A DNA stretch of 64,000 nucleotides from Mycolicibacterium alvei. Lineage in GTDB: Bacteria > Actinomycetota > Actinomycetes > Mycobacteriales > Mycobacteriaceae. The translations under genes were made by a program, and so were the position numbers. Of this stretch, positions 1 through 39,565 are shown piece by piece. Every line of letters starts with the position of its first letter. The first letter of the stretch is position 1. The stretch covers positions 4,712,001 to 4,776,000 of the forward strand of contig NZ_AP022565.1 in assembly GCF_010727325.1 (NCBI RefSeq), read 5' to 3'. The notes beneath the pieces are model-generated. The model was not told where the DNA came from and made no database searches. It saw nothing but the letters and a program-made list of their open reading frames with translations.

Positions 1-759
1 GTCGCCGACGAAGGTGCAGTTGTCCAGGCCGGGGGTCAGCTGAGCCAGCAGTGTCTGCTCACCGTTGCGCGGGTCGATCCGCAGCACCTGGCCGCTGGCC
101 ACCTGGGTGGAGACGATGTAGCCGTCGGCGTCGAACTTGACCGAGTCCGGTACCCCGAGCCCGCCGGCCACCACCTGAGGGGCGACCGGGCCTTTTTGGT
201 CAGGGTCGATCCGCCAGATCTCGTTGGCAGCCATCACCGGGAAGTAGAGCAGCCCGTCGGGGCCGACCTCCATGGCATTGGGGGAGGGCACGTTCTCCAA
301 CAGGATGCGCGGGGCGCCACCGGCGAGGTCGAATTCCATGAGCCGCCCGCCCTCGCGGCATTCGCCGACGAACAGCCGACCCTGGTCAAACGTGATGCCG
401 TTGGCCGAGGGGATGTCGTCGCGGAGCACGCGGGTGCGGCCGTCGACACTGCGCACGCTGACCCGGCCGTCCATCACCTCGGTGGCATACAGGTTGCCGT
501 CGGCGTCGAACGCGACGTCGTCCGGCGCGACGATGTCGCCCCCCTTGGCGCTGATGGCTTCCAGTCGCCCGGTCGTCAGGTCGAGGGCGCTGATCTGGCT
601 GCCGGTCACCTGTGCGATGTAGATCCGCCCGTCCGCGCCGGTGCGCAGGCCGTTCGCGCCGAAAAGCCGGCTGGACCCGGTGACCTGCTCCAGCGCCCAA
701 CTCCCGGCGACCGTGGGGTTTGCGGTGTACCTGGCGTCGGATACCGATAGGGCGCTCAT
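1..759 (-). CDS. SMP-30/gluconolactonase-like beta-propeller protein, 3' end cut by window edge
   Basis: The minus-strand frame is open from an ATG at 759 to the left edge (253 codons, no stop), so the C-terminus lies outside the window. Repeated beta-propeller blades are visible, each with a DG(N/R/Y)-(L/I)Y-type turn: ADGRIYIAQV, ADGNLYATEV, PDGLLYFPVM, ADGYIVSTQV. PSANGITFD and SPNAMEVGPDG fit the metal/active-site loops of the SMP-30/gluconolactonase/strictosidine synthase-like fold, which contains lactonases. It is divergent from a catabolic operon that includes a Baeyer-Villiger-type enzyme, so hydrolysis of a pathway lactone is an attractive inferred role. No signal peptide is visible; probably cytosolic. 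Confidence 0.8.
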   Translation of the reverse strand, partial: MSALSVSDARYTANPTVAGSWALEQVTGSSRLFGANGLRTGADGRIYIAQVTGSQISALDLTTGRLEAISAKGGDIVAPDDVAFDADGNLYATEVMDGRVSVRSVDGRTRVLRDDIPSANGITFDQGRLFVGECREGGRLMEFDLAGGAPRILLENVPSPNAMEVGPDGLLYFPVMAANEIWRIDPDQKGPVAPQVVAGGLGVPDSVKFDADGYIVSTQVASGQVLRIDPRNGEQTLLAQLTPGLDNCTFVGD

Positions 760-802
760 GACCTCGGACGTTAGCAAGTTCACGTAGTCCAGACAATAGC
801 GG

Positions 803-816
803 TCTGAATGTTCAGA
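803..816. promoter_or_regulatory. Inverted repeat, candidate operator
   Basis: TCTGAA-TG-TTCAGA, perfect 6-bp arms with a 2-nt spacer. It overlaps another pair, CAGAC at 790-794 and GTCTG at 802-806. It lies between the divergent SMP-30-like gene (start 759) and the SDR (start 913). Likely regulator binding site by position; regulator unknown. Confidence 0.35.
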
Positions 817-823
817 TCTCCCC

Positions 824-854
824 TTGACGGTGCATAAGTGCTGGGGAATAGTGT
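824..854 (+). promoter_or_regulatory. Candidate promoter of the catabolic operon
   Basis: TTGACG at 824-829 resembles a -35 box, and TAGTGT at 849-854 fits the actinobacterial -10 pattern TANNNT. The 19-nt spacing is slightly long. Two palindromes follow immediately downstream, which would place repressor sites over the start of the transcript. Inference from motif and position only. Confidence 0.3.
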
Positions 855-869
855 TCTCCAATATGGAGA
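855..869. promoter_or_regulatory. Palindrome TCTCCA-ATA-TGGAGA, candidate operator
   Basis: Perfect 6-bp arms around a 3-nt centre, directly downstream of the candidate -10 and 44 nt upstream of the SDR start. Position suits a repressor operator for the operon. Confidence 0.4.
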
Positions 870-878
870 TCATAATAT

Positions 879-892
879 TTTGTCCGGACAAA
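879..892. promoter_or_regulatory. Perfect 14-bp palindrome TTTGTCCGGACAAA, candidate TetR-type operator
   Basis: Both 7-bp arms match exactly with no spacer. Short palindromes of this style (TGTCCGGACA core) are typical of TetR-family regulators. It lies 20 nt upstream of the first operon gene. No regulator gene is encoded in the adjoining operon, so the cognate protein is elsewhere or beyond the left edge. Confidence 0.5.
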
Positions 893-912
893 TAGGTCGA
901 TAGGGGTTGCGC

Positions 913-1761
913 ATGGAGAGCTCCCTGAGCCTGGACGGCCGGGTCGTGGTGGTGTCGGGCGCCGGAGGTGGCGGCATCGGTACCACCGTCACGCGGATGG
1001 CGGCCGAGGCCGGGGCCACGGTCGTGGCGGTGAGCCGGTCGCAGGACAACCTCGACACGCACATTGCACCGTTGGCCGACAAGGGCCTGAACGTGGTGAC
1101 GGTGGCGGCCGACGCGTCGACGGATGAGGGCATCGCGACTGTGCTCGACGCGGCGCGGGCCGCCGAGGGCGTGCTGTACGGACTCGTCAACGTCGCCGGC
1201 GGCGCGGCCCCGTCGACCTGGATGCCGGCCACCCGGGTGTCGCGGGCGGACTGGCGCGAGCTGTTTGCCGCGAATCTCGAAACCATGTTCTTCATGAGCC
1301 AGGCGGTGGCCTCGGAGATCCGCGCGCAGGGCAATCCGGGCTCGATCGTGTCGGTCTCCTCGATCAGCGGAATGAACACCGCGCCGTATCACGTCGCCTA
1401 CGGCACCGCGAAGGCCGCGATTGTCGCGGCCACCAGAACCATGGCGGTCGAACTGGCGGATGCCGGCATCCGGGTCAATGCCGTCGCCCCCGGGGTGACC
1501 GAAACCGCCGCCTCGGCAACCTATGTCGACGCTGACCCCGAGCGTGACCAGCGGGCGATCGCGATGGGCCGGCGTGGCACGCCCGAGGAACAGGCCGGTG
1601 CCATCCTCTTTCTGCTCTCCGACCTGTCGAGCTACATCACCGGCCAGACCATCCTGGTCGACGGCGGACTCAACCTCCGCTGGACCCATCTCGGCGGTGA
1701 CAACACCTCGTTGTTCCTCAAGGACGAGACCTTCCGCGCGGCCATCAGGAGGCATGAGTGA
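913..1761 (+). CDS. Short-chain dehydrogenase/reductase, first gene of catabolic operon
   Basis: 282-residue NAD(P)-dependent SDR. The Rossmann glycine motif is SGAGGGGIG near the N-terminus, the catalytic Ser lies in SVSSISG, and YGTAKAAI supplies the Tyr-x3-Lys pair. ILVDGGLNL near the C-terminus is the usual SDR tail. The start is ATG 913, chosen over an in-frame TTG at 907 because AGGGG at 902-906 sits 6 nt upstream of the ATG. The stop overlaps the next start by 4 nt (GTGA), implying translational coupling with the Rieske oxygenase. Expected to oxidise an alcohol or reduce a ketone intermediate; substrate not deducible. Confidence 0.85.
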   Translation: MESSLSLDGRVVVVSGAGGGGIGTTVTRMAAEAGATVVAVSRSQDNLDTHIAPLADKGLNVVTVAADASTDEGIATVLDAARAAEGVLYGLVNVAGGAAPSTWMPATRVSRADWRELFAANLETMFFMSQAVASEIRAQGNPGSIVSVSSISGMNTAPYHVAYGTAKAAIVAATRTMAVELADAGIRVNAVAPGVTETAASATYVDADPERDQRAIAMGRRGTPEEQAGAILFLLSDLSSYITGQTILVDGGLNLRWTHLGGDNTSLFLKDETFRAAIRRHE

Positions 1762-3125
1762 CCGAAGAATTGACCGGCGAGCTTTCTTCCCCCATGACCA
1801 TCGGGGTCGACGCCTACATCTCACCGGAATACGCCCGCAACGAGCGGGATCGGCTGTGGCGCAAGGTGTGGCAGCAGGTGGGCCGCATCGAGGACCTGCC
1901 GGAGGTGGGCAGCTACCTCACCTACGACATCCTCGACGATTCGATCCTGGTGGTACGCACTGCCGCCGGCTCAACGGCCGAATCCTTTGCCGCCCATCAC
2001 AACGTGTGCATGCACCGCGGCCGGCGCCTGGTCGACACCCCGGCCGGCGCCAAGAGCGCCTGTGACCGGACCCGCAAATCGTTCATGTGCGGGTTCCATG
2101 GGTGGACCTACGATCTCCAGGGCGCCTGCACCCACATTCGGGAGCAGGACGACTGGCAGGGCACCTTGACCGCGGAGAACACTCATCTGGCCGGGGTCCG
2201 GGTCGACACCTGGGGCGGGTGGCTGTTCATCAACATGGACCCCGACTGTGAACCGTTGGCCGACTTCCTGTTTCCCGCCGCCAAGATCCTCGATCCGTTC
2301 GGCCTGGAGAACATGCGCTACAAGTGGCGCAAATGGTTGAAGTTCGACTGCAACTGGAAAGTCGCGATGGAGGCCTTCAACGAGACCTACCACGTGTTCA
2401 CCACCCACCCCGAGTTCAACAAGTTCGGTGAGTTCAAGGGTTGGGCCAAGGCGCAGGGCAAGCACTCCAACATCGGCTACGACGCGCCGAAGGACATGGA
2501 GGAGACCAAGTCCAAGATCCGCCTCGGCACCGGTGATCCGCGCATCTCCACCGCCGAGATGCAGGTCTACACCATGGAAGAGACCAACGCGACCACCACG
2601 CAGACCTTGGTGAACGCCGCCAAGCGCCTCGTCGACGAGCTGCCCGAGGGCACGCCGGCCGACAAGGTGCTCGAGCACTGGCTGTCCTCGGCGCGAGCCG
2701 ACGACGAGGCCCGCGGCGTGATCTGGCCGACCATCCCGCCCGATATTCTCGGGCAGAGCGGCACGGCGTGGCAGATCTTCCCGAACTTCCAGATCGGCCA
2801 GGGTCTGACCAGTGCCCTGTGCTACAGCGCCCGGCCTGACCCGAGCTACGACCCGGACAAGTGCATCTTCGAGGTGTCGGTGTTCGAGCTCTACCCCAAA
2901 GGTCAAGAGCCGCAGACTGAATGGGAATACACCCCGCCCGACAGTCCGAACTGGCGCTCGGTGCTGCCGCAGGACTTCTCGAACATGGCCGCCGTTCAGC
3001 AGGGCATGAAGTCGGCCGGTTTTCCGGGCACCAAACCGAATCCGTATCGCGAACGCAGCACCGTCAACCTGCACTACCAGCTTTCCAAGTACATGGGCAC
3101 GGGAGAGCCCACCGACATCCAGTGA
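1758..3125 (+). CDS. Rieske non-heme iron oxygenase, large (alpha) subunit type
   Basis: 455 residues, the normal length for ring-hydroxylating oxygenase alpha subunits. The [2Fe-2S] Rieske ligands are Cys84-x-His86 (CMHRG) and Cys111-x2-His114 (CGFHGW). The mononuclear iron site is in ETYHVFTTH (Glu209, His212, His217), in the usual E/D-x2-H-x4-H spacing. The GTG start at 1758 has AGGAGG 5 nt upstream and overlaps the SDR stop. No ferredoxin, reductase or beta subunit gene is adjacent, so electron transfer partners must come from elsewhere. Probably hydroxylates, demethylates or opens a ring substrate. Substrate unknown; family call firm. Confidence 0.9.
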   Translation: MTEELTGELSSPMTIGVDAYISPEYARNERDRLWRKVWQQVGRIEDLPEVGSYLTYDILDDSILVVRTAAGSTAESFAAHHNVCMHRGRRLVDTPAGAKSACDRTRKSFMCGFHGWTYDLQGACTHIREQDDWQGTLTAENTHLAGVRVDTWGGWLFINMDPDCEPLADFLFPAAKILDPFGLENMRYKWRKWLKFDCNWKVAMEAFNETYHVFTTHPEFNKFGEFKGWAKAQGKHSNIGYDAPKDMEETKSKIRLGTGDPRISTAEMQVYTMEETNATTTQTLVNAAKRLVDELPEGTPADKVLEHWLSSARADDEARGVIWPTIPPDILGQSGTAWQIFPNFQIGQGLTSALCYSARPDPSYDPDKCIFEVSVFELYPKGQEPQTEWEYTPPDSPNWRSVLPQDFSNMAAVQQGMKSAGFPGTKPNPYRERSTVNLHYQLSKYMGTGEPTDIQ

Positions 3126-3190
3126 TTTCGGTGCATTTAGCGGCGGTCAGCGCCGCCAGACGCACACAAATCGCCGACTAAGGAGCCGTA

Positions 3191-4363
3191 ATGAAAGTCA
3201 ATTTGGGTACCGGGGCGCAGAACTCCCACGACTGGGAGCGCGTACTCGCGGGTGACTTCAGCACCCCGCCGGCCACACCGGACTACGAGTGCGTGCAGGC
3301 AGCGCTGGCACTGGGCGACCTCGCCGAGCCGCTCGGCTTCGACGGGATCTGGTTCCCCGAGCATCACGGCACGCCATACGGCATGACGCCCAACCCGATT
3401 CAGGCTCTGACCTATTTCGCCGGACGGACCGAGCGGGTCAGCCTGGGTACCTTCGTGGCGGTCGTGCCGTGGTGGAACCCGATCCGGTTGGCCACCCAGA
3501 TCGCCTACCTCGACATCGTGTCCAAGGGCCGCTACACCACGATCGGCCTGGGCCGCGGGGTGTCCAAGGGTGAGTTCGCCGCCGTCGGCGTGCCGCGCGA
3601 GGAGAGCCGCGACCGCTTCAACGAGACGCTGGACATCCTCAAGCTGGCCTTCTCCGGCGAGCGGTTCTCCTACGAGGGCAAGATCTTCAGCTTCCCCGAG
3701 ATGTCGCTGCGCCCCGAGCCCATCAGCACCGACCTGTTCGACCGGATCTACAGTTCGTCCTCGACCGCGGAGTCTCTGGAGATCCTGTCCCGACGCGGCA
3801 TGGTGCCGCTGTTCGTCGGGAACAAGCCGATCACCGATGCCGGCGAGGAGGTGCGCAAGGTCAACACGTTCCGCGCCGAGGAGGGCCTGGGGCCGTGTCA
3901 GCCCAAGAACGTGATGTTCATGTACTGCGTGGGCTCCGAGGACGAGGTAGCGCAGACCGAGGAGTGGATCTGGACCGCCAACCGGGATGTCAACGTGCAC
4001 TACGGCTTTGCCGACGCGTCGAACTTCCAGGGTGTCAAGGGATATGAGGCCTACGCTGCCCGCGAAGCCAGTGCCACCGCGGTGCTGGCCTCGGAGGTCG
4101 GCAACCAGAAGAAGGGCGGCCCGCCCGGATACCACGCCTCCAACCTGCTGATCGGCACGCCCGAGACGGTGTTCACCAAGCTCAAGGCCGCGCAGGAGGC
4201 CTGCTCGTTCAGTGAGGTCACCATCGTCCCGCAGTTCGGCACCATGCCGTACGAGAAGGCGATGGAGTCCACCAAGCTGTTCGCCGCCGAGGTGCTGCCC
4301 GCGGTGCACGACATGCCCGCCCCGCTGCACGCCGCCGCGCTTCCGGAGAAGGCCAACGTATGA
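3191..4363 (+). CDS. LLM-class (bacterial luciferase-like) flavin-dependent oxidoreductase
   Basis: 390-residue TIM-barrel protein of the luciferase-like monooxygenase family. GFDGIWFPEHHG at about residues 50-61 is the typical luciferase signature, followed by VSLGTFVAVVPWWNPIRLA. RBS AAGGAG precedes ATG by 5 nt. The gene ends within the start of the Baeyer-Villiger-type gene (4-nt ATGA overlap). Family members use reduced FMN or F420; the cofactor cannot be decided here. In this operon it may be a monooxygenase acting on the same substrate as the Rieske enzyme or the flavoprotein. Confidence 0.85.
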   Translation: MKVNLGTGAQNSHDWERVLAGDFSTPPATPDYECVQAALALGDLAEPLGFDGIWFPEHHGTPYGMTPNPIQALTYFAGRTERVSLGTFVAVVPWWNPIRLATQIAYLDIVSKGRYTTIGLGRGVSKGEFAAVGVPREESRDRFNETLDILKLAFSGERFSYEGKIFSFPEMSLRPEPISTDLFDRIYSSSSTAESLEILSRRGMVPLFVGNKPITDAGEEVRKVNTFRAEEGLGPCQPKNVMFMYCVGSEDEVAQTEEWIWTANRDVNVHYGFADASNFQGVKGYEAYAAREASATAVLASEVGNQKKGGPPGYHASNLLIGTPETVFTKLKAAQEACSFSEVTIVPQFGTMPYEKAMESTKLFAAEVLPAVHDMPAPLHAAALPEKANV

Positions 4364-6213
4364 GTGAGGGCGGTTGCGGTCCCACCGACACCCCGGCAGA
4401 TTTCGACATCGACGCGATCCGGGAAAAATACGCCGCCGAGCGGGCCAAGCGGCTGCGGCCCGAGGGCGCCGACCAGTACCAGGAACTGGATGGTGAGTTC
4501 GCCGAGTTCTTCGAGGTCGACCCGTACACCACAGTGACCGAACGGGATCCGATCGTCGAAGACGCCGACGTCGTCATCCTCGGCGGTGGCTTCGCGGGCC
4601 TGCTGGCCGGGGCGTATCTGAAGAAGGCCGGCGTCGAGGGCATCCGCGTCATCGAGATGGCGGGTGACTTCGGCGGGGTGTGGTACTGGAACCGCTTCCC
4701 GGGCATCCAATGCGACAACGACGCCTACTGCTACGTCCCACTGCTCGAAGAACTCGACTTCATGCCGAGCAAGAAATTCGCCGACGGCGCCGAGATCTTC
4801 CAGCACTGCCGCAACATCGGCAAGCATTTCGGCCTGTACGACGGTGCCCTGTTCTCCACTCAGGTGCGTGAACTGCGGTGGGACGACGCGATTCAGCGCT
4901 GGCACATCAGCACCAACCGAGGCGATGAGATCCGGGCCCGGTTCGTCGTCATGGCGCAGGGCTCCTACAACGTCCCGAAGCTGCCCGGAATCCCTGGCAT
5001 CAACGACTACCGGGCTTCTGGTGGCCACGTGTTCCACTCCGCGCGTTGGGATTACGACTACACCGGCGGAGATGCCGACGGTGGCCTGGACAAGCTGGCC
5101 GACAAGCGCGTCGCCCTCGTCGGCACCGGCGCGACGGGCATCCAGTTGGTGCCGCACCTCGGCCGTGATGCCAAGGAGCTGTTCGTCTTCCAGCGGACTC
5201 CGTCGTCGGTCGACGCGCGCACCAACCCGGCCACCGATCCGGCCTGGGCCGCGTCGCTGCAGCCGGGTTGGCAGGAGGAGCGCAAGCGCAACTTCCACAA
5301 CTGGTCGCCGTTTGTCGGTGTGGTGTTCGGTGAGCCAGACCTGGTGTGTGACTTCTGGACCGAGCTCGGACGCAACCTGACCGCCCGGATCGCGGCCAGC
5401 GAGGACCCGGCGTCGGTGACCATCGAGCAGATCATGGCGTTCCGGGAAGAAGAAGACTTCAAGATCATGGAGCGGCTGCGCCGCCTGGTCGGCGACATCG
5501 TGGAGGATCCCGCGACTGCCGAGGCATTGAAGCCGTACTACCGCTTCATGTGTAAGCGGCCGACGTCCAGTGAGCACTATCTGGCCACGTTCAACCGCCC
5601 CAATGTGACCCTCGTCGACGTGTCGGCATCCAAGGGGGTCGAGCGGCTCACCGAGAAGGGGATCGTCGCCGACGGCGTCGAATACGAGGTCGACTGTGTG
5701 ATCTTCGCGAGCGGTTTCGAGATCTCCACCGAGATCAGCCGCCGGTTCGCGATCGACCGGATCGTGGGACGCGACGGACTGTCGCTGTTCGACCACTGGC
5801 AGAACGACTACAAGACCCTGCACGGAATGACCAGTCGCGGATTCCCCAACCAGTTCTTCATGGGCTTCATCCAGGGCGGCGTATCGGCCAACACCACGGC
5901 GATGTTCGAACAGCAGGCCAAGCACATCGCCTACCTCATCGCCGAGGCGCAGAACCGGGGTGCCACCACGGTCGAGCCCAGTCAGGAGGGCCAGGACGCC
6001 TGGGTCGCGACGGTCCGCGAACTGGCGATCGACAACTCGGCGTTCGAATTGTCCTGCACGCCCGGCTACTACAACAACGAGGGTCGCGGTGGCGCGGAAC
6101 GCAACGGCGCGTTCCTGGGTGATTTCTATTCGCCCGGGTTCTACGCCTTCGACGAGCTGATCGCGCAGTGGCGGGACAAGGGTGATCTCGACGGATTGGA
6201 GCTCACCACATGA
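4360..6213 (+). CDS. Baeyer-Villiger-type FAD/NADPH monooxygenase
   Basis: 617 residues with an extra N-terminal segment, as in steroid and large-ring ketone monooxygenases. The FAD Rossmann motif is ILGGGFAG (residues 73-80) and the NADPH motif VGTGATGIQ lies near 250. Between them GGHVFHSARWDY matches the BVMO fingerprint (F/G-x-G-x3-H-x3-W), with Ser in place of the first Phe. GGVWYWNRFPGIQCD is the conserved FAD-side segment. The family inserts oxygen next to a ketone to give an ester or lactone. The nearby SMP-30-like gene could hydrolyse that product. Starts by ATGA overlap and ends by ATGA overlap with the TauD gene. Confidence 0.85.
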   Translation: MSEGGCGPTDTPADFDIDAIREKYAAERAKRLRPEGADQYQELDGEFAEFFEVDPYTTVTERDPIVEDADVVILGGGFAGLLAGAYLKKAGVEGIRVIEMAGDFGGVWYWNRFPGIQCDNDAYCYVPLLEELDFMPSKKFADGAEIFQHCRNIGKHFGLYDGALFSTQVRELRWDDAIQRWHISTNRGDEIRARFVVMAQGSYNVPKLPGIPGINDYRASGGHVFHSARWDYDYTGGDADGGLDKLADKRVALVGTGATGIQLVPHLGRDAKELFVFQRTPSSVDARTNPATDPAWAASLQPGWQEERKRNFHNWSPFVGVVFGEPDLVCDFWTELGRNLTARIAASEDPASVTIEQIMAFREEEDFKIMERLRRLVGDIVEDPATAEALKPYYRFMCKRPTSSEHYLATFNRPNVTLVDVSASKGVERLTEKGIVADGVEYEVDCVIFASGFEISTEISRRFAIDRIVGRDGLSLFDHWQNDYKTLHGMTSRGFPNQFFMGFIQGGVSANTTAMFEQQAKHIAYLIAEAQNRGATTVEPSQEGQDAWVATVRELAIDNSAFELSCTPGYYNNEGRGGAERNGAFLGDFYSPGFYAFDELIAQWRDKGDLDGLELTT

Positions 6214-7052
6214 CGGTGACCACTGCACTTGATACCCGGGATATCAAGCCCCGCATCGGAACCGAGATCCGTGCCGACAAGGCGACGCTGCTCTCGGGCG
6301 AGTATGCCGGACAGATCCGGGAACTGCTCGAGCAGCGTGGGGTGCTGGTGTTCCCGCAGATCGGGTTCAGCGACGACGAACAGATCGCATTCACCGAAAC
6401 CCTCGGCACGTTCGCGCCCGAGCATCAGGGCGAGAAGCTCTACAAGGTCTCACTCGACACCGAGGTGAACAAGCAGGCCGATTATCTCAAGGGCTCGCTG
6501 TACTGGCACATCGACGGCACGATGAACGAGGTGCCGATCCTGGCCTCGCTGCTGCAGAGCGTGGCGCTGGGTAACCCCGAGGAAGGGGACACCGAGTTCT
6601 GCAACACCTACGCCGCCTACGACGACCTGTCCGATGACGACAAGGCCGATATCGAGGGGCTGCGGGTCATGCACTCGGCGTGGAACACGTTGTTCTACTA
6701 CGACCCCGAACCCAGTGCGAAGGCGCTGCGGCGCATGATGGCGATCGGTGATCGCGAGCTGCCGTTGGTGTGGACGCATCAGTCCGGCCGCAAATCGCTG
6801 GTACTGGGTGCCACCGCGCGCCACATCGTCGACGCCGACGGCCCGATCGACTTCCGCAAGAGCATCGAACTGCTGGTGCGGCTGCGAGATTGGGCGACAC
6901 AGCCCGATTTCACCTATCGGCACAAGTGGACCGTCGGCGACTTGGTGATCTGGGACAACACCGGAACCATGCACCGGGCCACGCCGTACGACCCGGCGTC
7001 GGGCCGGCTGTTGCAGCGCACCAAACTCGAGGGCGAGGAGCCCTTCGCTTGA
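6210..7052 (+). CDS. TauD/TfdA-family Fe(II)/2-oxoglutarate dioxygenase
   Basis: 280 residues. The facial triad is visible: WHIDGT gives His100 and Asp102, and NTGTMHRATP gives His255; an Arg near residue 270 (GRLLQRT) can bind 2-oxoglutarate. Family members hydroxylate unactivated carbons using 2-oxoglutarate and O2, sometimes causing ether or sulfonate cleavage. It is coupled by 4-nt overlaps to both neighbours. It provides a third distinct oxygenase type in one operon. Substrate unknown. Confidence 0.88.
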   Translation: MTVTTALDTRDIKPRIGTEIRADKATLLSGEYAGQIRELLEQRGVLVFPQIGFSDDEQIAFTETLGTFAPEHQGEKLYKVSLDTEVNKQADYLKGSLYWHIDGTMNEVPILASLLQSVALGNPEEGDTEFCNTYAAYDDLSDDDKADIEGLRVMHSAWNTLFYYDPEPSAKALRRMMAIGDRELPLVWTHQSGRKSLVLGATARHIVDADGPIDFRKSIELLVRLRDWATQPDFTYRHKWTVGDLVIWDNTGTMHRATPYDPASGRLLQRTKLEGEEPFA

Positions 7053-7969
7053 GCACTCTCAGATTCGACGATCGTGTCGCCATCATCACCGGCGGTGGCC
7101 GGGGGTTGGGCCGTGAATATGCTCTGCTGCTGGCATCGCGGGGCGCGAAGGTGGTCGTCAACGATCCGGGTGGCAGTCTCGCCGGCGACGGCGCTGATTC
7201 CGCGCCCGCACAAGATGTCGTCGACGAAATCACCTCGGCGGGTGGGGAAGCCATCGCCGTCACCGATTCGGTGGCCACTGCCGAGGGCGGTCGGGCCATC
7301 ATCGACACGGCCGTCGAGCGCTTCGGCCGCGTTGACATCCTGATCCACAACGCCGGTACGGTGCGCCGCGGCTCGCTCAAGGAGATGAGCTACGACGATT
7401 TCGAGGCGGTGCTCGACGTGCATCTGCGTGGCGCTTTTCACGTTGTGCGCCCCGCATTTCCACTCATGTGCGAGGCCGGCTACGGCCGGGTGGTGCTGAC
7501 CTCCTCGATCGGCGGGTTGTACGGCAACCACGAGGTGGCCAACTATGCCGCGGCCAAGGCCGGGATCCTGGGGCTGTGCAACGTGGTGGCGCTGGAGGGT
7601 GCCGCCGAAGGTGTCGCGTGCAATGCCATCGTGCCGGGCGCGGTGACCCGGATGGCCGAGGGTCTGGACACCTCGGCCTACCCGCCGATGGGCGCGGATC
7701 TGGTGGCACCGGCGGTGGGCTGGCTGGCCCACGAATCCTGTTCGGTCACAGGTGAATTTTTTGTGGCGATCGCCGGAAGGCTGGCCCGTGCGGTCGTCGC
7801 CGAATCTTCCGGGATGTACCAACCGTCATGGACCGTGGAGGAGGTCGGCGAGCAGATCGACCGCATCCGCGACGTCAGCGAGCCGGTGATCTTCCCGGTC
7901 GTCCCCGACGGGCATTCCGAACACATCCGCTACAGTTTTGGCCGGGCAGCGCAGGGGGTCACATCATGA
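7049..7969 (+). CDS. SDR, 17beta-HSD4/multifunctional-enzyme type
   Basis: 306 residues. The start is TTG at 7049, overlapping the TauD stop (TTGA); a longer in-frame extension exists only inside the upstream gene and was rejected. ITGGGRGLG is the cofactor motif, NAG is at HNAGTVRR, and Tyr/Lys are in ANYAAAKAG. The sequence NDPGGSLAGDG after the second beta strand is typical of the peroxisomal MFE-2-like SDR subfamily that oxidises 3-hydroxyacyl-CoA. This supports a beta-oxidation-like step, fitting the downstream CoA-transferase and acyl-CoA dehydrogenases. Confidence 0.85.
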   Translation: MSTLRFDDRVAIITGGGRGLGREYALLLASRGAKVVVNDPGGSLAGDGADSAPAQDVVDEITSAGGEAIAVTDSVATAEGGRAIIDTAVERFGRVDILIHNAGTVRRGSLKEMSYDDFEAVLDVHLRGAFHVVRPAFPLMCEAGYGRVVLTSSIGGLYGNHEVANYAAAKAGILGLCNVVALEGAAEGVACNAIVPGAVTRMAEGLDTSAYPPMGADLVAPAVGWLAHESCSVTGEFFVAIAGRLARAVVAESSGMYQPSWTVEEVGEQIDRIRDVSEPVIFPVVPDGHSEHIRYSFGRAAQGVTS

Positions 7970-9105
7970 CAACCGGTCCACTGCACGGGGTTCGGGTCAT
8001 CGACCTCACCGCGATGGTGATGGGGCCGTACTGCACGCAGATCATGGCCGACATGGGCGCCGACGTCGTCAAGGTCGAGACACCGGCGGGCGACAACACC
8101 CGCTACATCTCGGTCGGTCCCGCTCCCGGCATGAGCGGGGTGTTCGTCAACGTGAACCGCGGCAAGCGCAGCGTGGTACTGGATCTGCGATCGGAACAGG
8201 GCAAAGCAGACCTGCGTGCGTTGATCGCCGACGCCGACGTGTTCATCCATTCGATGCGGGCCAAGGCCATCGCCAAACTCGGGTTCGGTTACGACGACGT
8301 GGCGGCCATCAACCCGGGCATCGTCTACACCAACTGCTATGGCTATGGCCGGCGCGGCCCGGACGCCGACCGCCCCGCCTACGACGACACGATCCAGGCT
8401 GAGTGCGGATTGCCTGCCGTGCAACAGCAATTGACCGGTGAGGCCTCCTATGTGGGCACCATCATGGCCGACAAGGTGGCCGGGCTGACCGCCCTCTACG
8501 CGACCACGATGGCGCTGTTCCACCGGGAGCGCACCGGCGAGGGCCAGGAGGTCGAGGTCAGCATGTTCGAGACCATGGCCTCCTTCATGCTGGTCGAACA
8601 TGCCAACGGCGCCATGTTCGACCCCCCGCTGGGGCCTGCGGTGTACCCGCGGGCGGTCACCCCGAACCGCAGGCCGTATGAGACCAAGGACGGTCACATC
8701 GCGGCGTTGATCTACAACGACAAGCACTGGAACGCGTTCATCGATCGGGTGCAACCCAGCTGGAACAGCCCCGAATACGCCACTTTGGAGCAACGGGCCC
8801 GCCAGATCGACACCGTCTACGGCCTGCTGGCCCAGACGTTGAAGGATCGCACCACCGCGGAGTGGCTGGACCTATTCGCCGAGTTGGAGATTCCGGCGGC
8901 TCCCATGCTCACCCCCGATGAGCTCTTCGACAATGAGCATCTCAACGCGGTCGGTTTGTTCGAGACGGTGGACACCCCGCACGGCCGGGTGCGGATGCCG
9001 GGTGTGCCGACCTGGTTCTCCCGCACCCCCGGCCATATCGCCGGATATGCACCGGAACTGGGAGCCGACACCGATGCGGTACTTGCTGAGCTCGGCCCGC
9101 GATAG
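7966..9105 (+). CDS. Class III CoA-transferase (CaiB/BaiF family)
   Basis: 379 residues. The start is ATG 7966 (ATGA overlap with the SDR stop). GVRVIDLTAMVMGPYC and ADMGADVVKVE are the conserved N-terminal segments. The catalytic Asp is Asp169 in IMADKVAG, the same position as in formyl-CoA transferase. The family moves CoA between carboxylic acids through an aspartyl-CoA thioester. Since the operon has no acyl-CoA ligase, this is the likely entry of the pathway acid into CoA-bound metabolism. Confidence 0.9.
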   Translation: MTTGPLHGVRVIDLTAMVMGPYCTQIMADMGADVVKVETPAGDNTRYISVGPAPGMSGVFVNVNRGKRSVVLDLRSEQGKADLRALIADADVFIHSMRAKAIAKLGFGYDDVAAINPGIVYTNCYGYGRRGPDADRPAYDDTIQAECGLPAVQQQLTGEASYVGTIMADKVAGLTALYATTMALFHRERTGEGQEVEVSMFETMASFMLVEHANGAMFDPPLGPAVYPRAVTPNRRPYETKDGHIAALIYNDKHWNAFIDRVQPSWNSPEYATLEQRARQIDTVYGLLAQTLKDRTTAEWLDLFAELEIPAAPMLTPDELFDNEHLNAVGLFETVDTPHGRVRMPGVPTWFSRTPGHIAGYAPELGADTDAVLAELGPR

Positions 9106-9125
9106 ACGCGATAGAAAGGCCAGGA

Positions 9126-10280
9126 GTGGATTTCGATTTTGGTGAGGCGGCCGACACGCTGCGAGGTGAGCTGCGTGCGCTGATCGCCGATCAGGTGCCC
9201 GCCGACTTTCTCGGCGCGTTCACCGATGACCCCGCCGATCTGGCGGTGGCCCAGCAGTTCTGCCGGACCCTGGCGCAGCAGCACCTGCTGTGCAAGGCGT
9301 GGCCGGAGGAGTTCGGCGGCGGCGACGCCTCGGTGTGGGAGCAGACCGTGGTGCGCGAGGAGATGTGGGCGCACCACGAGCCACGTGGTGCGCAGTACAT
9401 GGGCGTCAACTGGGTGGGTCCGATCATCATGCGGCACGGCACCGAGGAGCAGCAGCGTAAGCACCTGCCGCCGATCGCCAACGGCGAAGTGATCTGGTGT
9501 CAGGGCTTTTCCGAGCCGGAGGCCGGCTCCGACCTGGCCTCGCTCCGCACGTTCGCCCGCCGGGAGGAAGACGGCTGGCGGGTCAACGGCCAGAAGATCT
9601 GGACCTCGTACGCCACCATGGCGCAGTGGATCTTCCTGTTGGCCCGCACCTCCAAAGGTGAGAAAAAGCAGCAGGGTATGACCATCTTCCTGGTGCCGAT
9701 GGATTCGCCGGGCATCACGGTGCGCCCGATCCGCACCATGATGGGCCCGCACCATCTCAACGAGGTGTTCTTCGACGACCTCAAGGTGACCGAGGCCGAT
9801 GTGCTCGGCACCGTGGACCAGGGCTGGTCGATGGTGCAGGACGTGGTGTCGTTCGAGCGCGTCGGCATCGCCCGCTACGCGCGCTGCGAGCGGCTGCTGC
9901 AGTCTGCCCCCGAGGTGCTCGGCGACAAGTGGGAACAGCTGCCCGCTGAGCTGCGTGGCCGGTGGACCCGGATGCTCACGCACTGCCGCCGGGCTCGGCT
10001 GATGGCCTACCGGGTGGTGTCGATGCAGGCGACCGGCCGGGTGAATCCCGGTGACTCCGCGGCCTATCGGATCGCGGTGACGCGGCTGGATCAGGAGAGT
10101 GCCGAGGTGCTGATGGAGATTGCCGCTGCCCTGCCTCGTGGGGGAAGCCCGGAGTCCGAGTACTTCCGCGCCGAGGTGGAAGACCACTGGCGGTACTCGC
10201 AGGCGTCCACGGTGTCCTCGGGCAGCATCGAGATGCAGCGCATCCTGCTGTCCCGCACCATGCTGGCCGGAAAGGCGTGA
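9126..10280 (+). CDS. Acyl-CoA dehydrogenase, large subunit of first pair
   Basis: 384 residues. GTG start at 9126 with AGGCCAGGA just upstream. FSEPEAGSDLASL is the conserved FAD/acyl-CoA segment and GQKIWTSYA follows. At the C-terminus SSGSIEMQRILLSR has Ser where MCAD-type enzymes carry the catalytic Glu, but SFERVGIA retains a Glu at the helix-G position used by LCAD-type enzymes. It is followed by a short acyl-CoA dehydrogenase gene, as in the heteromeric alpha2-beta2 FadE pairs of mycobacterial sterol catabolism. Likely desaturates a bulky acyl-CoA. Confidence 0.88.
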   Translation: MDFDFGEAADTLRGELRALIADQVPADFLGAFTDDPADLAVAQQFCRTLAQQHLLCKAWPEEFGGGDASVWEQTVVREEMWAHHEPRGAQYMGVNWVGPIIMRHGTEEQQRKHLPPIANGEVIWCQGFSEPEAGSDLASLRTFARREEDGWRVNGQKIWTSYATMAQWIFLLARTSKGEKKQQGMTIFLVPMDSPGITVRPIRTMMGPHHLNEVFFDDLKVTEADVLGTVDQGWSMVQDVVSFERVGIARYARCERLLQSAPEVLGDKWEQLPAELRGRWTRMLTHCRRARLMAYRVVSMQATGRVNPGDSAAYRIAVTRLDQESAEVLMEIAAALPRGGSPESEYFRAEVEDHWRYSQASTVSSGSIEMQRILLSRTMLAGKA

Positions 10281-10284
10281 CGCG

Positions 10285-11205
10285 ATGATTCTCGATCTCA
10301 ACGACGACGCCAAAGAGTTTGGCCGCCAAGCGCTCAAGGCCTTCGAGGCTGCCGGTGGTGACCAGCTGCTGGTCCAGGCCGACGCCAAACCCGACACCCG
10401 GGCCGGCTTGATCGCCCCCGTCCTGGAAAGCCTGGGGGTCTTCGAGCTCGAGCCGCGCGGCGATGAGGACTCACTGGAAGCCGCCGCCGCGGTGTGCCGC
10501 AGCGCCGGGTACTGGGCCCTGCCGTATCCGGTGGCCGAGCGGTTGGCACGTCCGGAGGGTCTCGACGTCGACGGCCTGATCGTCGTCGACGCCGACGCTC
10601 CCGAGGCGGCGCTGCAAGGTCTGGACAACCGATGGGCCGCAGTCACATTGGACGGTGGCCGCAGCACGGTATCCAAGTTCGGTGCATCCGGGCCGTCCTT
10701 CGCCACCGCCCTCGAACTCTCCGCGGTCGACAGTGCAGGGGCAGGGGATGTGGCGCTGGCCCTGACCCTGCCGTCGTGGACGCTGCTCGGCATGTTGGAC
10801 CGGGCCATCGACCTCACCGTCGCGCACGTCAGCCTCCGCAAGCAGTTCGGTCAGCCACTGTCGTCCTTCCAGGGGGTGCAGTTTCAGCTGACCGATGCCG
10901 AGGTGGAGCGCAGCGGCGTCGACATCCTGGCCAAGTACGCGCTGTGGAGCCTGACCACGAACCCTGCCGACGAGGCGATCAACGATGCCCTGGCGCTGCG
11001 ACTGGCCGCCATCGAGGCCGCCGAGGTGGTGTTCCGGGTATGCCATCAGTTGCACGGGGCAGTCGGCTTCTGCGATGAGACCGTGCTGTCCTGGCTGTCG
11101 CGCTACAGCCAGCCGTTGCGCCGCTTGCCATTCGGCGTATCCAAGACCCGCGACACCCTGACCGCCCGACTGGGCCGGCGTGGACTCACCGGGTTGTTTT
11201 CGTGA
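10285..11205 (+). CDS. Acyl-CoA dehydrogenase-like small subunit of first pair
   Basis: 306 residues, clearly shorter than the 380-residue norm. The ATG at 10285 follows the previous stop by 4 nt. SLRKQFGQPLSSFQ is the FAD-contacting Arg/Gln-Phe-Gly segment, and VCHQLHGAVGFCDET is the usual late helix. The Glu expected in helix G is absent (TLLGMLDRAIDL), consistent with the non-catalytic chain of a heterotetramer. Probable partner of the preceding large subunit; shares the active site and FAD. Confidence 0.82.
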   Translation: MILDLNDDAKEFGRQALKAFEAAGGDQLLVQADAKPDTRAGLIAPVLESLGVFELEPRGDEDSLEAAAAVCRSAGYWALPYPVAERLARPEGLDVDGLIVVDADAPEAALQGLDNRWAAVTLDGGRSTVSKFGASGPSFATALELSAVDSAGAGDVALALTLPSWTLLGMLDRAIDLTVAHVSLRKQFGQPLSSFQGVQFQLTDAEVERSGVDILAKYALWSLTTNPADEAINDALALRLAAIEAAEVVFRVCHQLHGAVGFCDETVLSWLSRYSQPLRRLPFGVSKTRDTLTARLGRRGLTGLFS

Positions 11206-12365
11206 GCGAACTCGACGACTTTCGGGCCACCGTGCGGGACTGGTGCGCCGCGCACGTCCCGAAAGACTGGCGCGCCAACCAGACCGGGGTCGGCGACGAC
11301 GAGTTCGCGTCTTTCCAGAAATCCTGGTTCGCCGAGCTACACACCGCCGGCTACGCCGTGCCGCACTGGCCCGCCGAATGGGGCGGCGGCATGTCGGTAC
11401 CTCAGCAGATCGTCCTGTACCAGGAACTGGCGGCCCACGATGCGCCCCGCCTGGTGTTGGCGTTCGTCGGGATCCACCATGCCGCCTCCACACTGTTGGC
11501 CGCAGGTACCGACGAACAACGTAGAAGGCATCTGCCGGCCATCCTCGACGGCGAGATCTGGGTGCAGGGTTTCTCCGAGCCGGAGGCCGGATCCGATCTG
11601 GCAGCACTGCGCACCACGGCCCGCGCCGATGGCGAGGACTTCATCGTCAACGGCCAGAAGCTTTGGGCCAGTGGCGCGTTACACGCCGACTGGTGTCTGC
11701 TGCTGGCCCGCACCGACCCGGATGCACCCAAGCGGCACGGCATCTCGTACTTCCTGATGGACATGACCACACCCGGCATCGACGTACGGCCGATCCGCAA
11801 TGCCGTGGGGGATTCCCACTTCTGCGAGATCTTCCTCAACGACGTGGCAGTGCCTGCGGCCAATCTGATCGGCCCGGTGAACAAGGGCTGGCAGGTCGCT
11901 CAGGCCACGCTCGGCGCCGAACGCGGCATGACCATGCTCGAGTTGTCCGAGCGGCTGGGCAATGCCGGCTTCACCTGGCTACTGGACGCTGCCCCGACCG
12001 ACGATCCGGTGGTGGCAGACCGGCTGGCGCAGTTCGAGATCGAACTGACCGGCCTGCGTCGTCTGTGCCGGGATCTGGTGGAGCGCACCGAGGCAGGGAA
12101 GGCCGGTCCGGCCGACGCCTCGATCGTCAAGCTCTACTACAGCGAGTTATTGCAGCGGATGACGGGCTTCGGTGCGGAGATCGGCGGTCTGCATTCCCAC
12201 ACCGTGCTCGCCAAACCGGCGTCCAGCGGCTGGGAGTCGGGCGCCTGGATGCTCGATTTCATCGGATCGTGGGAATGGACCATCCCCGGCGGGGCCAGCG
12301 AGATCCAGCGCACCATCATCGGTGAGCGCGGTCTGGGCCTGCCTCGAGAACCGAGTGCGGTGTGA
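11202..12365 (+). CDS. Acyl-CoA dehydrogenase, large subunit of second pair
   Basis: 387 residues. GTG start overlaps the upstream stop by 4 nt. FSEPEAGSDLAAL, GQKLWASGA and GGASEIQRTIIGERGLGLP are family hallmarks. The MCAD Glu position is Gly, while GAERGMTML carries a Glu at the helix-G position. Paired with the next, shorter gene. Two such pairs in one operon suggest two successive dehydrogenation steps or two chain lengths. Confidence 0.88.
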   Translation: MSELDDFRATVRDWCAAHVPKDWRANQTGVGDDEFASFQKSWFAELHTAGYAVPHWPAEWGGGMSVPQQIVLYQELAAHDAPRLVLAFVGIHHAASTLLAAGTDEQRRRHLPAILDGEIWVQGFSEPEAGSDLAALRTTARADGEDFIVNGQKLWASGALHADWCLLLARTDPDAPKRHGISYFLMDMTTPGIDVRPIRNAVGDSHFCEIFLNDVAVPAANLIGPVNKGWQVAQATLGAERGMTMLELSERLGNAGFTWLLDAAPTDDPVVADRLAQFEIELTGLRRLCRDLVERTEAGKAGPADASIVKLYYSELLQRMTGFGAEIGGLHSHTVLAKPASSGWESGAWMLDFIGSWEWTIPGGASEIQRTIIGERGLGLPREPSAV

Positions 12366-13399
12366 TGAGCGAATTTTCCGAGCTGCACGACGAACTGCGT
12401 TCGGTAGCGGCTGATCTGCTGGCCAAGGACACCGTCGACTGGCCACTGCTGGTCTCGGCGGGGTGGGTCGGACTGGACGCCCCCGAAGAGGCAGGCGGTG
12501 CCGGTGCGACGTTCGCTGAAGTAGCGGTGATCTGTGAAGAGATCGGCCGGGCTGCGGCGCCCACCAGCTACCTGGGCGGTGCAGTGCTGGCCATCTGTGC
12601 ACTGAATACGTTGCAATCCAATGACTCTCGCGGCGCGCTCCTACAGGACGTGGTGGCCGGAAACTCCCGCGCCGCACTCGCCCTGCCCGGGGCGGGTGAG
12701 CCGGCACCCTTCGAACTGGCCACCACCAGGCTGGGCTGGCGCGTCCACGGCCGGGCCGCCTTTGTGTCCGACGCGACCGGAGCTCGGCGGCTGCTGCTGC
12801 CTGCCCGTGACGCCGACGGCGTTGCGGTGCTCGTCGACGTGGCCGCCAATTCACCCGGGCTGACGGTCACCGAACAGCCGGTACTCGATGAGACCCGCAG
12901 ACTGGCCACCGTGACGGCCGAAGGTGTAGAGCTCGACGCCGACGCGGTGTGGCGATTCGACGGCGACCCCGAGGAGCAGGTGCGAAAGCTCACCGAACGG
13001 GCCGCGCTCGCGGTGGCCTGCGACAGCGTGGGCATCGCGCAGGCCATGCTCGACGCCACGGTGTCCTACACCGGGGTTCGCCAGCAGTTCGGCCGTCCGA
13101 TCGGCTCGTTCCAGGCCGTCAAGCACGCGTGCGCCGACATGCTGGTGCGGATCTCGGTGGCCCGTCAATTGGTGAACGCGGCCATCGAATCTCCGGAGCC
13201 TCGAGCAGTTTCGATGGCCAAGGCCTATGCCACCGAGGCGGCGGTCGAGGTGGCGGGCAAGGCCATGCAGTTGCACGGCGGTATCGGCTACACCTGGGAG
13301 AGCGGCGTGCACGTCTATCTCAAGCGGGCCGCGCTCAACCGTTCGCTGTTCGGCTCGCCCGCCGAACACCGCGGAAGGATCGCCCAGCGCTACCGATGA
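12365..13399 (+). CDS. Acyl-CoA dehydrogenase-like small subunit of second pair
   Basis: 344 residues from ATG 12365, which shares its A with the upstream TGA (TGATG). An in-frame GTG three bases earlier is possible. GVRQQFGRPIGSFQAVKHACADM is split across the conserved FAD and substrate helices, and MQLHGGIGYTWE matches the late ACAD motif. Shorter than a stand-alone ACAD and directly coupled to the large-chain gene, so probably the second chain of an alpha2-beta2 enzyme. Confidence 0.83.
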   Translation: MSEFSELHDELRSVAADLLAKDTVDWPLLVSAGWVGLDAPEEAGGAGATFAEVAVICEEIGRAAAPTSYLGGAVLAICALNTLQSNDSRGALLQDVVAGNSRAALALPGAGEPAPFELATTRLGWRVHGRAAFVSDATGARRLLLPARDADGVAVLVDVAANSPGLTVTEQPVLDETRRLATVTAEGVELDADAVWRFDGDPEEQVRKLTERAALAVACDSVGIAQAMLDATVSYTGVRQQFGRPIGSFQAVKHACADMLVRISVARQLVNAAIESPEPRAVSMAKAYATEAAVEVAGKAMQLHGGIGYTWESGVHVYLKRAALNRSLFGSPAEHRGRIAQRYR

Positions 13400-13468
13400 G
13401 CCGCGATGAGTTTTCCGCGCGGCAGTGGTCAGACCTAGCGACTGTCCATTGCATGAAGGAGAAATATC

Positions 13469-14242
13469 GTGGTTACCCGTCTGAGTGCCCCGCTGGGCGC
13501 CCCCAACTGGATCGACCTGACCACGTCCGACGTCGAGCGCGCCCAGCAGTTCTACGGTGCGGTGTTCGGCTGGACGTATGAGACCGGCGGCCCCGAGTAC
13601 GGCGGCTACGTCACTGCATCCGTCGACGGGCAGGTGGTGGCCGGTCTGATGCGCAATGACCCGCAGTGGAACGCCCCGGATGCGTGGACCACATACCTGC
13701 ACACCGCCGATGCCGACGCCACGGTGGCGGCGGCCATCGCGGCCGGCGGGAGTAACTGCGGTGGCGTGATGGACATCCCGGCCAAGGGCCGGATGGCGAT
13801 GATGACCGATACCGCCAACGGGTTCTTCGGCATCTGGCAGCCGGGCGGGCACGAGGGTTTCGCGGTGTTCAACGAGGCCGGGGCGCCGGTGTATCACCAG
13901 CTGACCACCAGCGACTACGCCAAGGCGTTGGACTTCTACCGGACGGTGTTCGGCTGGACCACCCAGGTGGTGTCGGACACCGACGAGTTCCGTTACAGCA
14001 CAGCTTCATTCGATGGCGAGGAATTGGTCGGTGTGATGGACGGTTCGTCGTTCATCCCCGACGGCGCGCCGTCGGATTGGGCCACGTTCTTCGGTGCCGA
14101 CGATGTGGACAAGACGATCGAGCTGGTTGTGGCCAATGGTGGCTCGGTGGTGCGCGCGGCCGAGGACACCCCGTACGGCAGGTTGGCCGCGGTGGCCGAT
14201 CCGACCGGTGCCGGGTTCAATCTGTCGTCACTGCAGGGCTGA
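13469..14242 (+). CDS. Tandem VOC (glyoxalase-like) domain protein, Rv0577/CFP32-like
   Basis: 257 residues made of two repeated VOC domains: LTTSDVERAQQFYGAVFGW near residue 16 and LTTSDYAKALDFYRTVFGW near residue 146. The layout and WNAPDAWTTYL-type segments recall the M. tuberculosis CFP32 family. GTG start at 13469 with AAGGAG 9 nt upstream. It is the last gene of the operon by position and is followed by a hairpin. VOC proteins include dioxygenases, isomerases and ligand binders; the metal site here is not obvious, so no reaction is assigned. Confidence 0.8.
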   Translation: MVTRLSAPLGAPNWIDLTTSDVERAQQFYGAVFGWTYETGGPEYGGYVTASVDGQVVAGLMRNDPQWNAPDAWTTYLHTADADATVAAAIAAGGSNCGGVMDIPAKGRMAMMTDTANGFFGIWQPGGHEGFAVFNEAGAPVYHQLTTSDYAKALDFYRTVFGWTTQVVSDTDEFRYSTASFDGEELVGVMDGSSFIPDGAPSDWATFFGADDVDKTIELVVANGGSVVRAAEDTPYGRLAAVADPTGAGFNLSSLQG

Positions 14243-14538
14243 GGGCGAAGTCGGCGACGCGGTCCTACCTGAGATTCAGGTGGGACCGCGGCCGGTTCGC
14301 GTCAGCTCAGCGGGCTCAGTTGTGGTGGCCGTATTCGCCGCCGGGCCCTGGGTTCAGTGCTTGCCGGGCGTGAATCCTTTCGCAGGAGTTTGCCGAAATG
14401 GGCCGAAATGGGTTGTCGGGACGGACCCATAACGGGGTTGCCTATTCGGGTAAAAGTGGCCAGCGCTGCGCCTAGCCTGGGTGGGAGTGAATGCTGCGCC
14501 GCGGGCAGGGCCGGTGGCAGAGAGGCGGGACCACTCCC
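14243..14538. other. Intergenic region between catabolic operon and thiocyanate hydrolase-like cluster
   Basis: No gene seen in these 296 bases. It holds the hairpin at 14258-14290, a short direct repeat of GCCGAAATGG around 14391-14412, and probably the promoter of the next cluster. An in-frame upward extension of the next gene to 14491 exists but has no family similarity that I recognise. Confidence 0.6.
14258..14290 (+). terminator. Hairpin after the catabolic operon
   Basis: CGCGGTCCTACCT pairs with AGGTGGGACCGCG around a 7-nt loop: 13 pairs including one T-G wobble, 16 nt after the last stop codon. There is no T-tract, as is common for mycobacterial terminators. Confidence 0.5.
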
Positions 14539-15378: not shown

Positions 15379-15422
15379 CCGCATCTGCCAACCGACTTAC
15401 CCGGAGACGATAGGAACTGCTT

Positions 15423-39518: not shown

Positions 39519-39565
39519 AAGGCCAGTATGGCCCAGCGGGGCCGCGGATAAACGTTTCAGCACGC

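Follow-up and report, generated by a model that had tools for sequence, protein, structure and literature searches.

Do four oxygenases that are encoded side by side in a mycobacterium act in one catabolic pathway, and which compound would they degrade? The question is raised by positions 1 to 14242 of a 64,000-nucleotide window (the whole stretch of DNA that was analysed), contained in the 6.0 Mb genome of Mycolicibacterium alvei (labelled G000). The locus encodes a Rieske non-haem iron oxygenase, a luciferase-like flavin monooxygenase (LLM), a flavoprotein resembling type I Baeyer-Villiger monooxygenases (BVMO) and a TauD/TfdA-family 2-oxoglutarate dioxygenase (TauD), next to short-chain dehydrogenases (SDR), a class III coenzyme A (CoA)-transferase and acyl-CoA dehydrogenases (ACAD). 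A preliminary description of this DNA had placed all four oxygenases in one fixed pathway. Comparison across mycobacteria revealed a genus-wide locus with an exact pair of alternative enzymes: the LLM alternates with a thiamine diphosphate (ThDP) enzyme and TauD is optional (9 of 80 loci), thus the fixed four-oxygenase pathway was not supported.

Distribution of the locus and alternation of two enzymes

Three hundred twenty of 395 sampled genomes of the genus (completeness of at least 95 %) carried an orthologue of the BVMO, defined by E ≤ 1e-240. To our knowledge, M. tuberculosis is without this BVMO. The 395 genomes were searched for the BVMO, the LLM and the ThDP enzyme with the top 3-4 first-look candidates scored per genome, and genome-wide the LLM was present in 108 and the ThDP enzyme in 215 of them. 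Each BVMO-bearing genome had exactly one of the two enzymes, 107 only the LLM and 213 only the ThDP enzyme; none had both, where independence predicted 71 of the 320, and none had neither. Among the 75 genomes without BVMO, one had the LLM, two the ThDP enzyme and 72 neither. A set of 119 genomes, for which up to 10-16 candidates were scored per genome, yielded 18 genomes with LLM and 39 with ThDP enzyme without overlap, in agreement with the larger set for the shared genomes.

Gene order was compared in the best 80 of at least 583 confirmed BVMO matches of a genome contig scan, all from Mycobacteriaceae. These loci, with flanks of 10 kb, comprised 1.67 Mb; 71 of them exceeded 21 kb, and the gene content was taken from our own gene caller. 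The order of the gene set was conserved across them. Rieske and BVMO genes were present in 80 loci, SDR1 and SDR2 in 79 each and the CoA-transferase in 74. On the opposite strand an SMP-30-like protein, a GntR regulator and CoA ligase 1 were encoded in 72 loci each, SDR3 in 69 and CoA ligase 2 in 51. The near-universal presence of SDR1, Rieske, BVMO and SDR2 argues against a chance grouping. Large subunits of ACAD were found in 38 loci, LLM in 17, TauD in nine and a VOC protein in four; the low counts of the last three exclude them from the core, and the ACAD pairs, like TauD and VOC, are not universal. The core thus consists of SMP-30, GntR and CoA ligase facing SDR1-Rieske-BVMO-SDR2-CoA-transferase.

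The LLM gene (3191..4363, plus strand) was located between the Rieske and BVMO genes in all 17 loci that possess it. Most loci were without LLM and carried a ThDP enzyme of 570 amino acids instead (56 loci), directly followed by an aldehyde dehydrogenase (ALDH) gene in 54 of the 56. No locus had both, and the seven with neither were three short contigs and four Mycolicibacter loci; in Mycolicibacter-like genomes the cluster has a remote second half, which contains the ThDP gene. A ThDP gene elsewhere in the host genome was considered and rejected, the best match having 29 % identity. Both variants occurred with BVMOs of at least 75 % identity to that of the window and with BVMOs below this value (7 and 10 loci for the LLM, 41 and 15 for the ThDP enzyme), an argument for one shared substrate. 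BVMO identity (48 of 73 loci at 75 % or above, 25 lower) is not aligned with the LLM/ThDP variant, as would be expected had the BVMO gene itself been exchanged.

The LLM exceeded the cut-off of the Bac_luciferase Pfam family clearly (175.8 bits, cut-off 27.9) and was nearest to luciferase and RslO1, both by sequence profile and by the fold of the AlphaFold model. Baeyer-Villiger-type oxidation of carbonyls is the reaction of luciferase and of RslO1. The ThDP enzyme matched acetolactate synthase, oxalyl-CoA decarboxylase and 2-hydroxyacyl-CoA lyase of the PDB about equally and reached no curated cut-off among the 25 NCBIfam models shown. In the family of this enzyme (L049:18019-19731), a conserved DS...VD replaces GDG...NN in 60 members. 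GDG...NN is the usual ThDP metal-binding motif, thus the chemistry of this enzyme may be unusual. A reaction that both routes might have in common would be the cleavage of a carbon-carbon bond next to a carbonyl, yielding an acid. It is quite possible, and tentatively proposed here, that the O2-dependent LLM is a one-protein, non-orthologous replacement for ThDP enzyme plus ALDH that was repeatedly swapped within a regulon degrading an alicyclic natural product.

Gene organisation

The plus-strand operon has the order SDR1, Rieske, LLM, BVMO, TauD, SDR2, CoA-transferase, two ACAD large/small pairs and VOC. The gene content given in the preliminary description was confirmed by Pfam domain matches for two SDRs, Rieske alpha subunit, LLM, FAD/NAD flavoprotein (FMO-like), TauD, CoA-transferase, ACAD pairs and VOC. 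The stop/start overlaps noted there were found as 4-base overlaps at seven of the 11 junctions from SDR1 to VOC, the remaining four being gaps of 65, 20, 4 and 69 bases. SDR1 (907..1761, start at 907 or 913) precedes the 455-residue alpha subunit of the Rieske oxygenase (1758..3125), which carries NWKVAMEAFNETYHVFTTH with a Glu in the bridging position, presumably as in carnitine oxygenase.

The LLM gene is followed by that of the BVMO-like flavoprotein (4360..6213), an N-terminally extended protein of 617 amino acids recognised by Pfam, NCBIfam and PDB searches. Its nearest named relatives among the matches listed include proteins of M. porcinum (94 %) and M. senegalense (93 %). The best NCBIfam model was PtlE (NF045818, neopentalenolactone D synthase) with 674.4 bits, under the curated cut-off of 1100, and the PDB search placed 5mq6 closest, together with phenylacetone, steroid and cyclohexanone monooxygenases. 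Two Rossmann motifs GxGxx[G/A], GGGFAG at 75 and GTGATG at 255, flank residues 220-231; flanking of the fingerprint by two such motifs is a criterion for type I BVMOs in the accessible part of PMC9836352. By these searches the protein is nearest to BVMOs, and conversion of a ketone to an ester or lactone is its putative function.

Downstream, on the same strand, the accessory TauD (6210..7052) has the residues H100, D102, H255 and R266, invariant in nine aligned sequences; its second NCBIfam match was PtlD (69 bits, cut-off 550). In M. porcinum, a close relative, the TauD match spans only the last 79 residues (L010:11833-12069), apparently a natural loss. SDR2 (7049..7969) is an extended short-chain dehydrogenase similar to PRK07791, under the cut-off of that model. 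The class III (CaiB/BaiF) CoA-transferase (7966..9105, likely start ATG 7966) reached 382.6 bits for CoA_transf_3 (cut-off 23.3) and possesses the Asp of the conserved ADK motif. In class III CoA-transferases this Asp is catalytic. The first ACAD pair comprises a large subunit (9126..10280) and a small subunit (10285..11205, likely start ATG 10285; 38 of 80 loci), the second pair a large subunit (11202..12365) assigned by Pfam and NCBIfam and a small subunit (12362..13399; 36 of 80 loci). The VOC/glyoxalase protein (13469..14242) probably lies outside the core; it was rejected as a core gene, being restricted to the closest relatives. In two loci (L009 and L043) a Cupin_5 gene comes directly after the VOC gene.

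The divergent operon SMP-30 - GntR - CoA ligase - SDR - CoA ligase continues past the window edge. The SMP-30/SGL-type beta-propeller, a putative lactonase of 537 amino acids (SGL Pfam 67.8 bits, cut-off 26.3), occupies 1..759 of the minus strand and extends off-window to G000:C1:4711146; its start at 759 was chosen by us. On the same strand of this contig, outside the window, follow the GntR-UTRA regulator with both domains (G000:C1:4710400-4711137), CoA ligase 1 (4708795-4710393; AMP-binding 238 bits), SDR3 (4708007-4708792) and CoA ligase 2 (4706541-4708010; AMP-binding 235.5 bits). The second-best NCBIfam model of CoA ligase 1 was cyclohexanecarboxylate-CoA ligase (333.9 bits, cut-off 792). 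The earlier statement that no CoA ligase is encoded was wrong because the divergent operon leaves the window at its edge. The absence of ferredoxin and reductase holds among the genes of both operons. The pathway was also called complete, which found no support: hydratase, thiolase, flavin reductase and Rieske reductase were not seen among the operon genes here.

The VOC gene is immediately followed, at 14491-16540, by genes of nitrile hydratase type (beta, alpha and a beta-N-like third). The alpha chain motif reads CALCSC; usual are CTLCSC or CSLCSC. As cluster members these genes were rejected (none of the 80 loci), though the flanks of 10 kb barely reach them. Ku-like and LigD-like genes, named by reading the sequence, lie close together at 38700-42996. 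A foreign island was dismissed: the GC content of 63.5-67.4 % over 1-16000 resembles the rest of the window.

A palindrome at the head of both operons

Two operator-like palindromes are common to the intergenic regions of the divergent promoter. In the host genome, the pattern TWGTCYRGACWA had exactly two matches in 6.0 Mb, both between the divergent operons and without strand: palindrome 1, TAGTCCAGACAA, at 785..796 and palindrome 2, TTGTCCGGACAA, 95 bases after it at 880..891. The palindrome is specific to the locus, at the head of both operons, in this genome; a reversed control pattern had one match in G000. Between the palindromes lies a predicted promoter-like conserved stretch on the plus strand, TTGAC-N-AATAGT (824..852), whose pattern occurred in 68 of 74 intergenic regions. 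The 80 loci contained 128 exact palindrome sites, each located at the plus-operon head, seven of them overlapping the called start of SMP-30 or SDR1; 55 loci had two sites, 18 had one and seven had none.

The genome check comprised 18 chosen genomes, including nine cluster-bearing mycobacteria. In these nine further genomes all 15 sites stood at cluster heads, and six genomes without BVMO orthologue had zero matches. The reversed control matched 20 times in the 18 genomes, about once per genome, thus single palindrome matches can be chance. Chance was also assigned to the single site in G002 (4.0 Mb, no Rieske or BVMO orthologue), located inside a reading frame with no cluster genes around. 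Two more distant, cluster-bearing genomes of the same order (G103 and G111) had no palindrome match, thus the site is not common that far out. Both genomes (L104-L112) carry three relatives of the Rieske gene within 34-57 kb, two of them close and the third distant, alongside two BVMO orthologues (G103) or a single one (G111).

Three Mycolicibacter-like genomes (G068, G021 and G016) have the cluster split into two distant halves (L141-L144). In one half GntR-SMP-30 faces CoA-transferase-ACADs-ThDP enzyme, the other, followed over its full length in G068, is SDR1-Rieske-BVMO-TauD-SDR2-ALDH. In G068 and G021 one palindrome has stayed with each half and no further ones occur in the genome; the distance between the two is about 3.3 Mb on the contig, or about 1.7 Mb in the opposite direction should the molecule be circular. 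G016 had one exact match, at the SMP-30 half. GntR and UTRA domains are encoded alongside the conserved palindrome at the controlled promoters, and we infer that the GntR protein would be its binder. The earlier view of one co-regulated catabolic unit is supported by the conserved gene order, by the palindromes in common and by the genomes with a split cluster.

Proposed pathway and alternative explanations

From sequence and comparison, a dedicated mycobacterial catabolic regulon for an alicyclic, perhaps terpenoid-like compound, with two carbon-carbon cleavages followed by CoA-dependent beta-oxidation, appears moderately probable. An alicyclic, methyl-branched, perhaps terpenoid-like substrate would be hydroxylated by the Rieske enzyme, with an optional extra hydroxylation by TauD, and SDR1 would oxidise the product to a ring ketone. 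Insertion of oxygen by the BVMO would give a lactone to be opened by the SMP-30 protein. A second carbon-carbon bond, adjacent to a carbonyl, may be cut directly to an acid by the LLM in a Baeyer-Villiger-type reaction with reduced flavin mononucleotide (FMNH2) and O2, acting on an acyloin, a 1,2-dione or a similar carbonyl; in other species the ThDP enzyme would release an aldehyde, to be oxidised to the same acid by the aldehyde dehydrogenase. Either the two CoA ligases or the CoA-transferase may activate the acids; the heteromeric ACADs and SDR2 would then carry out the shortening, for which hydratase and thiolase would be supplied by other parts of the genome. The GntR protein would repress both operons until a pathway intermediate binds to its UTRA domain.

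Indications for the substrate were taken from more distant clusters. Three large genomes of the same order, perhaps Rhodococcus (G094, G103 and G111), have a module of CoA ester lyase and transferase genes near the cluster. The lyase of G094 is nearest to the itaconate-pathway carbon-carbon lyase RipC (155 bits, cut-off 375), a hint of a methyl-branched acid as end product that weakly fits a terpenoid-like substrate. Among 909 plasmid records with a Rieske match, the annotation of five was inspected. The plasmid pUSK13_1 of Rhodococcus sp. USK13 encodes SMP-30-SDR1-Rieske-BVMO-SDR2-ThDP-ALDH-TauD; nearby are a CoA ligase, ACADs and an ABC transporter with a peptide-type annotation. An 864 kb linear plasmid of M. 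branderi (NZ_AP022607.1) has a ThDP-ALDH-Rieske-BVMO-SDR2-CoA-transferase variant, with P450s and mycofactocin-coupled SDRs nearby; one palindrome match was observed there upstream of the ThDP gene (L119). On the Sphingobium plasmid RAC03, relatives of the Rieske enzyme (63 %) and TauD lie among ACADs, CoA-transferases and a CoA ester lyase, and BVMO and SMP-30 were absent from the annotated 37 kb. This plasmid has an exact palindrome between its second Rieske gene and a CoA-transferase gene (L115:12311-12322), by chance or by a shared regulator. Abscisic acid as substrate stayed a guess; the genome announcement PMC12509608 and the accessible part of PMC7996341 name no genes for it.

Several observations weigh against the proposed pathway and the enzyme replacement within it. 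The 320 genomes are not independent. A quick tree search with five core proteins, without bootstrap, showed five or more label changes, four forced by well-supported branches, thus only four to five independent LLM/ThDP switches stand behind the complete pattern. All four independent pairs pointed in the same direction; with so few pairs the sign test gave p = 0.125 and was unable to reach 0.05. Relatedness inflates the count of 320; the switches, though few, agree with each other. One locus (L050) has the LLM together with a member of the ALDH family, and Rhodococcus sp. USK13 has the ThDP enzyme, ALDH and, next to SMP-30, an annotated LLM of 336 amino acids from another family, so that the exclusivity is seen for mycobacteria and this LLM family and may not extend to LLMs at large elsewhere. 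The AlphaFold model of the LLM was moderate (pLDDT, the predicted local distance difference test, 70.6), with three of five models under 50. In the BVMO, the fingerprint FxGxxxHxxxW[P/D] corresponds to SGGHVFHSARWD at 220, with agreement at G, H, W and D and an S in place of the initial F. The SMP-30 protein also exceeded the Vgb_lyase Pfam cut-off (57.6 versus 50), its sole NCBIfam match listed was ScyD/ScyE (109.4, cut-off 80), and gluconolactonase (33.5 bits) ranked far behind designed and kinase NHL propellers when its profile was searched against the PDB. Its role as lactonase is assumed, a guess from the fold family and the position opposite the BVMO. The terpenoid idea draws mainly on distant relatives, which point to it weakly.

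The LLM and the ThDP enzyme might instead serve different substrates, two ecotypes feeding one BVMO core through non-equivalent enzymes. The two enzymes share neither fold nor cofactor family, and the accessory genes differ between both types of loci. A division by substrate is nevertheless unlikely in view of the 320 genomes with neither co-occurrence nor joint absence, the occurrence of both variants on either side of 75 % BVMO identity, and the presence of GntR and palindromes in both.

Replacement of ThDP enzyme and ALDH by the LLM also has to be weighed against alpha-oxidation, in which the ThDP enzyme would be a 2-hydroxyacyl-CoA lyase: TauD would hydroxylate an acyl-CoA at C2, the lyase would release formyl-CoA and an aldehyde, the ALDH would form the shortened acid, and the LLM would oxidise an equivalent carbonyl. 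The lyase and oxalyl-CoA decarboxylase are among the nearest PDB matches of the ThDP enzyme, CoA ligases are present in the divergent operon, and an actinobacterial 2-hydroxyisobutyryl-CoA lyase is known (PMC7176365, accessible part). We consider this distinctly unlikely: TauD, which would start the sequence, was distributed over four of 17 LLM loci, three of 56 ThDP loci and two of the seven with neither, and acetolactate synthase models outscored the lyase model NF058623 (258 versus 172.6 bits, lyase cut-off 600), as acetolactate synthase also came first in the profile search (220 versus 212 bits).

A cluster for the side chain or rings of steroids or bile acids, to which heteromeric ACADs and the match of CoA ligase 2 to steroid-24-oyl-CoA synthetase (227.7 bits, cut-off 750, not the best match) would point, is quite improbable. 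The KstR core motif TnnAACnnGTTnnA, as given in the accessible part of PMC1995591, occurred in none of the 74 intergenic regions, its two matches in the window lie elsewhere (37625 and 48415), and the locus has its own GntR protein instead of KstR. On these regulatory grounds the steroid-like compound of the preliminary description was not supported. Biosynthesis of a pentalenolactone-like lactone, suggested by PtlE as best model of the BVMO and PtlD as second match of TauD, is extremely improbable, since both matches are far under the cut-offs (674 of 1100; 69 of 550), no terpene synthase family was recognised in the scanned proteins of the cluster and its neighbourhood, and CoA ligases, CoA-transferase and ACADs point to degradation.

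What stands of the earlier interpretation are the BVMO, the divergent lactonase-like gene, CoA activation and the co-regulated ACADs; no support was obtained for the fixed four-oxygenase pathway, the missing CoA ligases and, on regulatory grounds, the steroid. With the key gene in 320 of 395 genomes, the substrate would give some indication of what most mycobacteria feed on outside a host. The either/or pair is a direct test case for the equivalence of flavin peroxide and thiamine ylide chemistry, and the locus-specific palindrome makes the inducer searchable by a simple reporter.

Comparison with known systems

In an open-access full-text search, at the level of titles and abstract beginnings, the gene order was undescribed among the matches listed. 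Nor was a substrate assigned to the locus among these matches, with most subscription papers outside the coverage.

In the camphor pathway of Pseudomonas putida, diketocamphane monooxygenases (type II, LLM) and OTEMO (type I) act sequentially, combined with CoA activation; the likeness to the locus is in the presence of type II and type I BVMOs plus CoA activation. Pentalenolactone biosynthesis shares PtlE as the best BVMO match, yet PtlE and PtlD both remained below the curated cut-offs and the neighbours here are catabolic. The cluster of 2-hydroxyisobutyryl-CoA lyase likewise unites GntR, CoA ligase, aldehyde dehydrogenase and a ThDP lyase, but BVMO and ACAD genes are not described in the accessible part of PMC7176365, and the ThDP enzyme of the relatives is far from the NF058623 cut-off. 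The cholesterol regulon of KstR is also mycobacterial and has palindromic sites often between divergent genes (PMC1995591, accessible part), but regulator family and site are different.

For Sphingobium sp. AntQ-1, an LLM with a hydrolase and a type I BVMO with a lactone hydrolase have been proposed for the degradation of 9,10-anthraquinone (PMC9836352). The accessible part of this paper does not describe a Rieske-SDR-CoA-transferase-ACAD block; the substrate is aromatic, the lactone hydrolase is of another type and the organism is a Sphingobium, not a Mycobacterium. Shared with the locus is the union of an LLM (type II) and an FAD-dependent (type I) Baeyer-Villiger-type oxygenase, each with a hydrolase, in one proposed pathway, and by this comparison the anthraquinone pathway of AntQ-1 is the closest precedent.

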